Source: Actinomycetota bacterium
Lineage (GTDB): Bacteria > Actinomycetota > Actinomycetes > S36-B12 > GCA-2699445
Assembly (NCBI GenBank): GCA_029978705.1
Contig: JAPOIY010000020.1
Location: 1 to 48,632 of the forward strand
Direction of reading: 5' to 3'
DNA length: 48,632 nt
The position numbers and the translations under genes are program-made. Under the pieces are notes generated by a model. That model saw nothing but the letters and a program-made list of their open reading frames with translations, was not told the DNA's origin and made no database searches. Positions 10,059 through 15,268 of this stretch are shown piece by piece (position 1 is the stretch's first letter; every line of letters begins with the position of its first letter).

Positions 10059-11177
10059 TCAGCGGCCTTCCATCACGGCGCGGAACCGGTCGAACAGGTA
10101 GGCCGCGTCGTGGGGGCCGGCGGCCGCCTCCGGGTGGTACTGGACGCTGAACGCCCGACCCGATACCAGGCGCAGTCCCTCCACGACGTCGTCGTTGAGG
10201 CAACGGTGGGAGACCATGGCGGGCCCGTACGGGGTGGCGAAGGAGTCGCCGTCCGGTGCGGCGACGGCGAACCCGTGGTTGTGGGCGGTGACCTCGACCT
10301 TCCCGGTGGTCAGGTCCATGACGGGCTGGTTGATGCCGCGGTGCCCGAACTTCAGTTTGTAGGTGTCCAGCCCGAGGGCACGCCCCAGCATCTGGTTGCC
10401 GAAACAGATGCCGAACAGGGGCCGGTCGGCGGCGAGCACCCCCTGTACGAGGTCGACCGCGTGGTCGGCGGTGGCGGGGTCTCCGGGGCCGTTGGACAGG
10501 AAGAAGCCGTCGGCCCCGGTGCCGAGCAGGTCGGCCAGGCTCGTGCGGGCGGGCAGGACGATGACGCGGATCCCCCGTTCCGCCATGCGCCGGGGGGTCA
10601 TGGCCTTGATGCCCAGGTCGACAGCGGCGACGGTGAGTTCCGCTTCGCCGTCCGGTTCGACGACGTACGACTGCGGGGTGGTGACCTCCTCGGTGAGGTC
10701 GGCTCCCGCCATGGCGGGGCTGGCCAGCACCCGGTCCAGCAGCGTGCCGGGGTCGGCCAGCGCCGCCCCCGAGAACACACCGACGCGCATGGCGCCGCGC
10801 TCCCGCAGGTGTCGGGTGAGGGCCCGGGTGTCGATGTCGCTGATGCCCACGACCCCCGCGTCGCGCAGGCCGTCCTCGAGTTCGCCGGTGGCGCGCCAGT
10901 TGCTGGCCCGCACCGCGGGGTCGCGGACCACGTAACCCGAGACCCAGATCCGGCGGGACTCGGGGTCCTCGCCGTTCAGCCCGGTGTTGCCGATGTGTGG
11001 CGCTGTCTGCACGACCACTTGCCGATGGTAGGAGGGGTCGGTCAGGGTCTCCTGGTAGCCGGTCATGGCCGTGGTGAACACGGCCTCCCCGAACGTCTCG
11101 CCGCGCGCGCCGTAGGCGCTGCCGCGGAAGGTGCGGCCGTCCTCGAGGACGAGCACGGCCGGTTCCGGCGCTGTCAT
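10059..11177 (-). CDS. carA: Carbamoyl phosphate synthase, small subunit CarA
   Basis: Glutamine amidotransferase subunit that feeds ammonia to CarB. The 372-residue product has the N-terminal CPSase domain ([37 protein letters not shown]). The C-terminal class I glutaminase domain has nucleophile Cys in [13 protein letters not shown] and the His-Glu pair in VQYHPEA. The start is ATG at 11175-11177, overlapping the end of the upstream membrane protein gene as ATGA, so translation is coupled. Length matches the family. Confidence 0.98.
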
Positions 11178-11731
11178 GAGATTCCCTCCAGATGCAGCCG
11201 GGCGATGTGGTCGCGCACGGCGGCCTGCGTCCCGGCGTCGGCGAACCACAGCCCCGTGGTGACGGGGGTGTCCTGCCAGGTCCAGTCCAGCGTCAGCACG
11301 CCGTGGCCGCCGAAGTGGCGCTGCAGCATGCCGGGCACGGTGCCGACGGCGCCGAGGGCATCGGTCGCGATGAACAGCGGCGGCTCCCCCTTCCGGTCCA
11401 CGAGGACCCCGAAGGGACCGACGACGACGTGGGCGCCGGCGCGGGTGCCGCCGGCGACGACCCGCTCCAGGAGCCGCCCGGCCAGCACGGTCCCGATGTA
11501 CGAACCCGGCGCGGCCGGCAGGCCGGCCGCGGCCTCGGCCACGGCGGGCGGCACCTCCGGGAGGCGCAGTCCCTGCCGCCGTTCCCGGGCGCGCCAGCCG
11601 CGGAACATGCCGTACAGCAGCAGCGCGACGACAGCGGCGGTCAGCAGCATGAGGAAGATGCGCACTGGCCAGTCGGTGACCGCCGCCTGCTCGCTGAGCG
11701 GCTCGGCCACGGCGGCCGCGGGGCCCGTCAC
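11174..11731 (-). CDS. PH-like membrane protein of the pyrC-carA interval (Rv1382-like)
   Basis: A 185-residue protein with one predicted membrane span near residues 18-40 ([20 protein letters not shown]), a basic stop (RGWRARERR), then a soluble domain of about 140 residues with no motif I can assign to an enzyme. A protein of this shape lies between pyrC and carA in Streptomyces (SCO1485) and Mycobacterium (Rv1382); its function is not established there. The likely start is GTG at 11729-11731, overlapping the pyrC TGA, with another GTG one codon upstream. The conserved position suggests a link to the pyr operon, but no biochemical role can be read from the sequence. Confidence 0.8.
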
Positions 11732-13029
11732 CACTGCAGGTCCCCGGCGACGACCGTCGGTCGGCCGCGCAGGATCGTGGTGGTGACACGTCCGGGCAGC
11801 GTCATGCGGCGGTACGGCGAGTTGCGGGCCGGGCCGGGGAAGGCCCACGGGTCCACGGTCCACTCGTCGTCATCGGCGACCGCGGTGAGGTTCGCCGGCT
11901 CCCCCACGGCGATCGGGCGACCCTGGTCGGGCACCCGGCCGATCGCCGCCGGGGCAGCCGACAGCCGGTCCGCCACCCCGGCCCAGTCGAGCAGACCGGG
12001 ACGCACCATCGTGTCGATCACGACGGACAGGGCGGTGGGCAGGCCGATCATGCCGAAGGCGGCGGCGTCCCACTCGCAGTCCTTGTCCTCGGACGTGTGC
12101 GGCGCGTGGTCGGTGGCGACGATGTCGATCGTGCCGTCGGCCAGCGCCATACGCAGCGCCTGCACGTCGCGGTCGGTGCGCAGCGGCGGGTTGACCTTGT
12201 AGATGGGGTCGTAGCTGCGGGCCAGTTCGTCGGTCAGCAGCAGGTGGTGCGGGGTGACCTCCGCCGTGACCGCGATGCCCCGCTCCTTGGCGCGGCGGAT
12301 CAGGTCGACGCTGCCGGCGGTCGAGACGTGGCAGACGTGCAGCCGGGACCCGACATGGGCGGTCAGGAGGATGTCGCGGGCGATGATCGACTCCTCCGCG
12401 GCGGCGGGCCAGCCCCGCAGCCCGAGGATCGCGGACACCGCGCCCTCGTTCATCTGGGCGCCGACGGTGAGGCGCGGCTCCTGGGCGTGCTGGGCGATGA
12501 CGCCGTCGAACGCCTTGACGTACTCGAGGGCGCGCCGCATCAGCAGCGCGTCGTCGACGCACTTGCCGTCGTCGCTGAAGACGCGCACGTGGGCGGCGGA
12601 GTCGGCCATGGCGCCCAGTTCGGCGAGTTGCTCGCCGCCCAGACCCAGCGTGACCGCGCCGACCGGGTGCACGTCCACGTAGCCGGCTTCCTGCCCGAGC
12701 CGGAACACCTGCTCCACGACCCCGGCGGTGTCGGCGACGGGATCGGTGTTGGCCATCGCGTGTACGGCGGTGAAGCCGCCGAGGGCCGCTGCCGCCGACC
12801 CGCTGCGTACGGTCTCGGCGTCCTCGCGGCCCGGCTCGCGCAGGTGGGTGTGCAGGTCCACCAGCCCGGGCAGCAGGATCTGTCCGGACAGGTCCAGGGC
12901 CCGCACGCCCTCGGGCGGGGCGGGGGACCCGGCGGGCGTGAGGTCGGCGATGACACCGTCGGCGATGAGCACGTCCGTCGGGGCGCCGCCCAAGGGGCGT
13001 ACCCCCTGCAGCAGGATCCGCTCGCTCAC
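11728..13029 (-). CDS. pyrC: Dihydroorotase PyrC
   Basis: Zinc amidohydrolase that closes carbamoyl aspartate to dihydroorotate. The 433-residue type I enzyme has the metal-binding [10 protein letters not shown] (His60, His62, substrate Arg64), the HVCHVST and [13 protein letters not shown] His-bearing strands, the catalytic Asp in VATDHAPHT, and a C-terminal amidohydrolase tail. GTG at 13027-13029 overlaps the pyrB TGA as GTGA, giving VSERILL as N-terminus; longer in-frame extensions lie inside pyrB. Type I dihydroorotases often associate with PyrB, which is its neighbour. Confidence 0.96.
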
Positions 13030-13985
13030 ACGATCACCTCGGTCGGCTCCGGCTGGCGCGAGCCGCCGACCAGGAGATACAGCACGGCCATCCGGACGCT
13101 GACGCCGTTGGCGACCTGCTCCACGATGACCGAACGGTCGTGGTCGGCGACGCCGTCGGCGATCTCCATGCCGCGGTTCATGGGTCCGGGGTGCATGACG
13201 ATGGCGTGCTCGGGCAGCATGTCCATGCGCACCTGGTCGAGCCCGTAGCGACGGCTGTACTCGCGGGCGCTGGGGAAGAAGGCCGCGTTCATGCGCTCCC
13301 GCTGCACCCGCAGCATCATGACGGCGTCGCTCTCGGGCAGCGGGTCGTCCAGCGAGTACGACACCGTGACCGGCCACTCCTCGACCCCGACCGGCAGCAG
13401 GGTCGGCGGGGCGACGACGGTGACCTTGGCGCCGAGGGTGTCCAGCAGGTGCACGTTGGAGCGCGCCACGCGGCTGTGCAGGACGTCGCCGACGATCGTG
13501 ACCCGCAGGCCCGACAGGTCGCCCTCCCCGCCACGCAGGTGGCGGCGGATCGTGAAGGCGTCGAGGAGCGCCTGCGTGGGGTGTTCGTGGGTGCCGTCGC
13601 CGGCGTTGACGACGGCCCCGTCGATCCAGCCCGCCTCGGCGAGCCGGTGCGGGGCGCCGGAGGAGCCGTGCCGGATGACGACGGCGTCCGCCCCCATCGC
13701 CTGCAGCGTCAGCGCCGTGTCCTTCAGGGTCTCCCCCTTCGACACCGACGACCCCTTGGCGGAGAAGTTGATGACGTCGGCGGACAGCCGCTTGGCGGCC
13801 GCCTCGAAGGAGATCCGGGTGCGGGTGGAGTCCTCGAAGAAGAGGTTCACGACCGTCTTGCCCCGCAGCGCCGGGAGTTTCTTGACAGACCGGTCCGACA
13901 GCGTGGCCATCTCGGCGGCGGTGTCGAGGACGAGCACGGCGTCCTCGTGGTCCAGATCCGCGGCGGACAACAGGTGCGGGATCAT
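13026..13985 (-). CDS. pyrB: Aspartate carbamoyltransferase catalytic subunit PyrB
   Basis: Joins carbamoyl phosphate and aspartate, the committed step of pyrimidine synthesis. The 319-residue protein has the carbamoyl-phosphate motif [12 protein letters not shown] (Ser53-Thr54-Arg55-Thr56), the [12 protein letters not shown] motif, and the aspartate-binding [10 protein letters not shown] and MHPGPMNRG loops. No pyrI regulatory chain is present, as is usual in actinobacteria, so regulation probably acts through PyrR. The ATG overlaps the pyrR stop as ATGA. Confidence 0.97.
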
Positions 13986-14560
13986 GACCCGCCCTCCCGC
14001 ATGAGCACGATCTCGTCGACCCCGTCGATCTCGGTCAGCCGCATCCGCACGGTCTCGCCGCGGTGGGTGGGCAGGTTCTTGCCCACGTGGTCGGCCCGGA
14101 TCGGCAGCTCCCGGTGCCCGCGGTCGACGATGACGGCGAGCCGGACGGCGCGGGGGCGCCCGATGTCGTGCAGGGCGTTCAGGGCGGCGCGCACCGTGCG
14201 GCCCGAGAACAGGACGTCGTCGACGAGCACGACGGTGCGCCCGTCGATGCCGTCGGAGGGGATCTCGGTGGGTCCGAGGGCGCGGGCCGGGTGAAGCGCG
14301 AGGTCGTCGCGGTACATGGTGACGTCGAGCGAGCCGACGGGCACCGGCCGGCCTTCGGCGGCTTGGATCCGGGCGGCGATCCGCTGCGCCAGGATGGCGC
14401 CGCGGGTGGGGATGCCCAGGATGACGAGGTCGTCGGCGCCTTTGGCGTGTTCGATGATCTCGTGGGAGATCAGGGTGAGGGCCCGGGTGAGGTCGCCGGC
14501 GTCGAGAACGACGGGACCGACCTCCGCGGTCGCGGACGGCACGCGGTCCGAAGCCACCAT
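13982..14560 (-). CDS. pyrR: Bifunctional pyr regulator / uracil phosphoribosyltransferase PyrR
   Basis: UMP-responsive RNA-binding regulator of pyrimidine genes with weak uracil phosphoribosyltransferase activity. The 192-residue product has the PRPP-binding signature [18 protein letters not shown] and the N-terminal [16 protein letters not shown] strand. I chose ATG at 14558-14560, which follows GAAGGGG by 5 bases. A GTG two codons earlier lies inside this Shine-Dalgarno sequence and is rejected. A PyrR-binding-loop-like hairpin lies immediately upstream. PyrR in mycobacteria is known to repress translation of its own operon, and this layout suits that mode. It heads the pyr operon. Confidence 0.96.
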
Positions 14561-14572
14561 GAGCACCCCTTC

Positions 14573-14590
14573 GCCGCCTCGCCGGACGGC
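14573..14590 (-). promoter_or_regulatory. PyrR-binding-loop-like hairpin in the pyrR leader
   Basis: The minus strand reads GCCGTCCGGCGAGGCGGC. It folds with GCC/GGC and CC/GG arms, one bulged U and a GGCGA loop. Bases 2-11 of the known PyrR target ARUCCnGnGAGGYU match exactly, and the Y position also matches (GUCCGGCGAGGC). It abuts the Shine-Dalgarno GAAGGGG (14566-14572), so bound PyrR would block ribosome access. The match is seen directly; regulation is inferred from mycobacterial PyrR. Confidence 0.7.
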
Positions 14591-14611
14591 TGCTTAAAGG
14601 ACTGTTCCTTC

Positions 14612-14617
14612 ACTGTA
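14612..14617 (-). promoter_or_regulatory. Possible -10 element for the pyr operon
   Basis: TACAGT fits TAnnnT and would start a leader of about 45 bases that contains the PyrR hairpin. No clear -35 box is seen at the usual spacing. A short inverted repeat (AAGGA-CTGT-TCCTT, plus strand 14597-14610) lies at the predicted start. Confidence 0.35.
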
Positions 14618-14702
14618 ACCCACGGTCCGGGGGCGCCCGCGGGCGCCGCGTGCCGAACGGGTGTGCGCCACGCAATGTGACGAAGCCCGCACGTAGCATC
14701 GG

Positions 14703-14731
14703 TTGGGCGACCCCGGGCGACTACGTATGGT
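14703..14731 (+). promoter_or_regulatory. Candidate bldD promoter
   Basis: TTGGGC at 14703-14708 and TATGGT at 14726-14731 are separated by 17 bases, a good sigma-70-type spacing. The predicted leader is about 42 bases and ends with AGGGGAG before the bldD ATG. Confidence 0.5.
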
Positions 14732-14779
14732 TATGACAGGTCGACAGGGGGAACGACCACGACAGTCAGGGGAGATGAG

Positions 14780-15268
14780 ATGGCCAGCGACTACGCACGA
14801 GCTCTCGGCGGCCGGCTGCGGGCGATCCGGCAGCAGCAGGGCCTGTCGCTGCAGGGCGTCGAAGAGAAGTCCGGCGGCCGCTGGAAGGCTGTCGTCGTGG
14901 GCTCCTACGAACGCGGCGACCGGGCCGTGACCGTGGCCAAGCTGGCGGAGTTGGCCGACTTCTACGGGGTCCCGGTCGCGGAGTTGCTGCCCGGCGGCAT
15001 GGCGGGGGCCGCTTTCGAGCCGCCCGCGCAGATCATCATCGACCTCGCACAGCTCGACCGGATCCCGCCGGACAAGGGCGGCCCGCTGGCGCGGTACGCG
15101 GCCGCGATCCAGACCCAACGGGGGGACTACAACGGCCGGGTGCTGTCGATCCGGGCCGACGATCTGCGCACCCTGGCCGTCATCTACGACCAGCCGCCCG
15201 GCGCGCTCGCGGAGGAACTGATCTCGTGGGGCGTGCTCAACCCGGAGGCGCGGGCCGCCGTCGACTGA
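14780..15268 (+). CDS. bldD: Developmental/c-di-GMP-responsive regulator BldD
   Basis: DNA-binding regulator that in Streptomyces represses sporulation genes when dimerised by tetrameric c-di-GMP. The 162-residue protein has an N-terminal helix-turn-helix of XRE type (about residues 8-70, GGRLRAIRQQQGLSLQGVE, GSYERGDRAVTVAKLAELAD). Its C-terminal domain carries the complete c-di-GMP signature RGD-x8-RxxD: Arg114-Gly-Asp116 and Arg125-Ala-Asp-Asp128. The ATG follows AGGGGAG. It is divergent from pyrR, as in Streptomyces. Presence of the ligand motif suggests c-di-GMP control, but the developmental programme of this organism is unknown. Confidence 0.95.
   Translation: MASDYARALGGRLRAIRQQQGLSLQGVEEKSGGRWKAVVVGSYERGDRAVTVAKLAELADFYGVPVAELLPGGMAGAAFEPPAQIIIDLAQLDRIPPDKGGPLARYAAAIQTQRGDYNGRVLSIRADDLRTLAVIYDQPPGALAEELISWGVLNPEARAAVD

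Follow-up and report, generated by a model that had tools for sequence, protein, structure and literature searches.

The 48,632-nt stretch of DNA analysed here (the window) carries a minus-strand pyr operon with a short hairpin immediately ahead of its first gene, pyrR. The question that this locus raises is whether the hairpin is a target of the PyrR protein and, if so, whether it would act through transcription termination or through access of the ribosome to the pyrR start.

A structured leader ahead of the pyr operon

The product of pyrR (13982..14560, minus strand, start ATG at 14560) is a uracil phosphoribosyltransferase-like regulator of 192 aa, which is assigned to the NCBIfam PyrR equivalog NF003547 (268.5 bits, cutoff 230) and matches the solved PyrR structures 1A3C, 1NON, 1W30 and 5IAO. 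The protein is intact, with both the conserved PRPP-loop motif and a second conserved motif present. The pyrR stop is overlapped (ATGA) by the start of pyrB, encoding aspartate carbamoyltransferase (13026..13985, minus strand), and the pyrB stop is overlapped (GTGA) by the GTG start of pyrC, encoding dihydroorotase (11728..13029, minus strand). The operon continues to carA, identified by Pfam as the gene for the carbamoyl-phosphate synthase small subunit (10059..11204, minus strand); a small bPH_11 (bacterial PH-like) protein is encoded between pyrC and carA (11174–11728, minus strand). The hairpin thus stands directly ahead of pyrR-pyrB-pyrC-carA in a genome that itself encodes PyrR, which is the setting of a pyr leader.

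The whole element occupies 14600..14568 of the minus strand, 5′ of pyrR, and the leader RNA from 14600 to 14558 reads 5′-CCUUUAAGCA-GCCGUC-CGGCGA-GGCGGC-G-AAGGGG-UGCUC-AUG. Its apical part, the predicted PyrR-binding hairpin GCCGUC-CGGCGA-GGCGGC (14573..14590, minus strand), is identified by the core motif, by covariance models R1 and R2 and by covariation across classes; this hairpin had been located correctly in a preliminary description of the DNA, which left its strand unstated. All 10 specified positions of the core RUCCnGnGAGGY are matched, and the hairpin loop has the form CnGnGA. Against the longer consensus ARUCCnGnGAGGYU, for which a match at 11 core positions had been claimed, 14590..14573 agrees at 10 of the 12 specified positions. 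Both misses fall on the outer A-U pair, which is replaced by C-G, and pairing is therefore kept.

Below the apical hairpin lies a basal stem that had been overlooked. Its 5′ strand, CCUU (14597..14600, minus strand), belongs to a conserved CCUUUAA and is paired in 99% of the cells of a 53-sequence alignment, while its 3′ strand, AAGG (14568..14571, minus strand), is invariant in that alignment; the 5′ side carries the internal bulge (UUUAA), so that the element runs from CCUUUAAGCA to GAAGG. The Shine-Dalgarno (SD) sequence of pyrR, recognised from the sequence as AAGGGG (14566..14571, minus strand) in place of the usual AAGGAGG and separated from the ATG by a 5-nt spacer, overlaps this stem. 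The SD had been placed next to the hairpin; it lies inside the structure, where it supplies the 3′ side of the basal pairing.

Upstream of the loop we recognise a probable −10 element, TACAGT (TANNNT; 14612..14617, minus strand), from its sequence and its conserved position; the span 14566–14617 first proposed for the PyrR loop and ribosome site also takes in this element. Among 78 relatives, TANNNT occurs 15–26 nt upstream of CCUUU in 72, compared to 4.9 ± 2.2 in shuffles, and in the window the TA is found at −17. Since a scan with the sigma-70 consensus found no promoter, the −10 element is argued from this positional conservation. The position of the motif would place the transcription start near 14605, in which case the leader would be made up almost entirely of the loop and the SD. 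The divergent gene on the plus strand is bldD (NCBIfam equivalog NF050110; 14780–15268), the start of which lies about 175 bp from the inferred pyrR transcription start.

Recognition, conservation and covariation of the loop

A covariance model of 46 positions, trained on 42 actinobacterial pyrR leaders that did not include the window, gives this site 43.2 bits (E = 4e-12); the runner-up in the 48.6 kb reaches 11.1 bits. The significance of the site comes from the score of the whole element and not from the core motif, which alone is insignificant: a shuffled window is expected to hold 1.4 matches, and at least one was present in 75 of 100 shuffles. The window locus scores below most members of its class (about 45 bits versus 50–69 bits for most). 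Weak second matches to the loop in the window's own genome reach 15.9 bits at best; those in two relatives (G040 and G022) look like chance, lying, as judged by eye, in or near coding genes for a UvrD-type helicase and an acyltransferase-like protein. Single-sequence thermodynamic folding ranked the hairpin no better than a shuffled sequence and was left out as support, and when about 60 nt of coding sequence were included the predicted minimum-energy structure differed from the hairpin.

The Rfam model RF00515 also aligns at the site, with 22.4 bits against a gathering score of 54, and a scan of 14 class relatives gave one match at E 0.1 (38.7 bits) and none at the gathering score. RF00515 extends into the attenuator region beyond the loop, a part that the window's class lacks. 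Since the standard model misses the loops of this class, its pyr leaders are probably under-annotated.

A loop at E ≤ 0.001 was found in 195 of the 197 genomes sampled from the window's class, and the two genomes without it (G012 and G034) are also without an orthologous pyrR, the search returning no match in G034 and a remote match only (3e-8) in G012. The same co-occurrence is seen among 60 relatives: a strong loop was found in 54 of the 55 with pyrR, the 55th having a tandem variant, and the five without pyrR have no loop above chance-level scores. At 80 pyrR loci from named genomes the strict pattern stands at the pyrR start in 77; two of the remaining three show a change from a G-U to an A-U pair, and one is a tandem version. 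Lack of conservation in close relatives had been put forward as the outcome that would undo the initial proposal, and a covariance-model search of actinobacterial pyrR leaders as the way to check it; the search recovered the window site, the loop is kept in relatives, and the idea survived.

A locus from the window's family (L002 at about 1340–1410, corresponding to G005 and L156) has tandem apical cores, UGUCCAGUGAGGCA and CGUCCGGUGAGGCG, ahead of pyrR. The two cores share one CCUU/AAGG pair, and single-strand folding does not favour two separate hairpins.

The apical stem covaries across classes, with 40 cells changed on both sides versus 11.5 in shuffles and a covariation score of 0.517 versus 0.168 in shuffles; one apical pair occurs as GC, CG, AU and UA. 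The shuffle does not correct for relatedness; a second control that keeps it, in which the pairing was slid by 1–3 columns, gave at most 9 cells changed on both sides versus the 40 observed. The basal stem is nearly invariant and is therefore itself supported by little covariation.

Further copies of the loop occur away from pyrR. Several genomes of the Nocardioides-like genus g244 contain a second loop copy with AAGGAGGU as the SD, and in the three that were examined this copy is found directly ahead of carA, with the start codon 8–9 nt after AAGG. The downstream gene was confirmed as carA by translation in G404 and G389, and G473 has the same VPLHAPAILVLEDGR start in its sequence. These carA-linked loops (L229, L230 and L231, in G404, G473 and G389) lie 4–16 kb from the pyrR loop. 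The presence of the loop-SD unit before carA as well argues for a portable pyr control element rather than a peculiarity of the pyrR start.

Termination, passive structure or occlusion of the ribosome site

We compared the region between loop and pyrR across 93 class loci, the window included. None of them has a terminator between the loop and pyrR, and in all but two the pyrR start lies 5–16 nt after AAGG; in the two exceptions it lies beyond the protein match used. In the window the distance from AAGG to the ATG is 7 nt, and a terminator search of 13900–14800 found no terminator-like site. The closeness of loop and SD, which had been singled out as a property of this locus, is instead the standard arrangement of the class, the mycobacterium-like lineage included. 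With an SD that overlaps the loop and with no terminator, the locus has the features of the translational-repression class of the Mycobacterium smegmatis type, and the antiterminator and terminator of the Bacillus type are absent.

Bacillus-type attenuation, in which the hairpin would serve as an anti-antiterminator and PyrR would promote an intrinsic terminator before pyrR, is nearly refuted by these observations. It can draw on the use of the same loop element and on the other classes of the phylum, where a terminator-like hairpin follows the loop in 26 of 44 loci; however, a pyrR gene that begins 7 nt past the basal stem leaves no room for a terminator, and neither the searched region of the window nor any of the class loci has one. 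We consider it very unlikely that the hairpin is a passive structure at the ribosome-binding site or an RNA thermometer, conserved for pyrR translation and not a PyrR target. A hairpin that overlaps the SD would have its SD strands conserved anyway, and its opening would cost only about 3–5 kcal/mol in silico, yet the unpaired letters CnGnGAG are conserved although they are irrelevant to pairing, and they stay constant while the letters of the stem vary. Nor would a passive structure explain why there is no loop where pyrR is absent, why the same loop stands ahead of carA, or why in other classes it lies far from the pyrR SD and ahead of a terminator.

The best explanation is that a PyrR hairpin sequestering the pyrR SD represses translation of the operon, a reading to which we assign a probability of about 0.9. 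PyrR-dependent translational repression had also been the initial proposal, and it is upheld by a loop that tracks pyrR, by the lack of a terminator after the loop and by the identity of the basal 3′ strand with the SD. The following sequence of events takes protein binding, the nucleotide signal and ribosome occlusion from what is known of the PyrR family. The leader RNA would begin slightly upstream of 14600 and present the PyrR-binding hairpin, with pyrR immediately behind it. At high levels of uridine nucleotides, PyrR together with UMP or UTP would clamp the hairpin; the clamped hairpin would keep AAGG paired with CCUU and the ribosome site covered, and pyrR would not be translated. The downstream genes would follow pyrR by translational coupling and/or polarity, since the pyrR-pyrB (ATGA) and pyrB-pyrC (GTGA) overlaps are such that blocked initiation at pyrR can lower their expression. 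When uridine nucleotides fall, PyrR would depart and the ribosome would open the weak basal stem.

A variant of this explanation concerns the distal genes, repression of which might depend chiefly on mRNA decay or Rho-dependent termination once translation is blocked, and not on initiation alone. If the first gene of an operon with ATGA and GTGA junctions is blocked, untranslated RNA would be exposed, and the variant is compatible with SD occlusion; decay or Rho action would, however, be a consequence of that occlusion and not an alternative sensor, and as the main route of distal repression we regard it as rather unlikely.

Relation to other pyr leaders

Elsewhere in the phylum the loop is combined with different downstream sequences. 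Of the 25 loci from other classes in which pyrR starts at a distance, 11 have a short open reading frame (ORF) that begins 5–17 nt after AAGG and the stop of which overlaps the pyrR start (as TGATG, ATGA, GTGA or TAGTG), compared to 1.4 expected and a maximum of 6 in 300 shuffles, a control that ignores kinship among families. These leader ORFs (L169, L170, L171, L175, L177, L183, L184, L221, L226, L227 and L228, all sister-class pyrR leaders) comprise 15–28 codons and use the AAGG of the loop as their SD, and several cross a terminator-like hairpin and U-run. Judged by this layout, ribosome-coupled attenuation gated by PyrR is a possible mechanism for the sister-class leaders. A separate pattern is seen in family f33 (L190, L191, L193, L194, L198, L199, L202, L205 and L207), in which the loop takes the variant form GGUACAGAGAGRCC and is mostly accompanied by a terminator; a UCUGUAC-containing segment shortly before pyrR seems able to pair with this loop.

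Ribosome-coupled pyr attenuation is said to have been proposed for Thermus ZO5 by Van de Casteele et al. in 1997, with translation of a leader preventing termination. The sister-class Actinomycetota loci resemble this model. The window shares with it a PyrR loop that would gate translation, but it has neither a leader ORF nor a terminator. We give about even weight to a joint reading of these layouts, in which the PyrR loop is one conserved sensor with exchangeable outputs across Actinomycetota and AAGG as the hinge, and in which direct translational repression is derived from ribosome-coupled attenuation. In several sister-class families PyrR would gate a translating ribosome which, unless held back, averts termination or supplies the pyrR start; the window's class has neither leader ORF nor terminator, and there pyrR would use this SD directly. 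The comparison suggests that SD occlusion arose when leader ORF and terminator were lost, the direction of this change being a guess, and it provides a testable route from a termination to a translation output of one protein-binding RNA with an unchanged sensor.

With the Bacillus-type pyr attenuators of Rfam RF00515 the window shares the CCUUUAA bulge, the UCCnGnGAGG core and the AAGG basal strand. Unlike in those attenuators, no antiterminator/terminator part follows, and the proposed output is translation, not termination.

The closest counterpart is the pyr operon of Mycobacterium smegmatis, for which PyrR-dependent translational repression is reported (Fields and Switzer 2007, J Bacteriol 189:6236; cited in PMC13328217 and PMC6455119). 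PyrR is reported to act there on translation of the pyr mRNA, and the same output is proposed here; the window comes from another organism, with its own apical stem (GCCGUC/GGCGGC), loop (CGGCGA) and SD (AAGGGG). A mycobacterium-like locus in our collection (L212) lacks an attenuator and shows an identical arrangement of loop and SD where pyrR begins, and its PyrR best matches the M. tuberculosis structures 5IAO and 1W30. Given that repression in M. smegmatis has already been reported and that a mycobacterium-like lineage has the same layout, the window represents a further case and not a new mechanism. Taken together, the comparison indicates that almost every member of the class has, as its default, the layout of a mechanism so far reported from a single mycobacterium.
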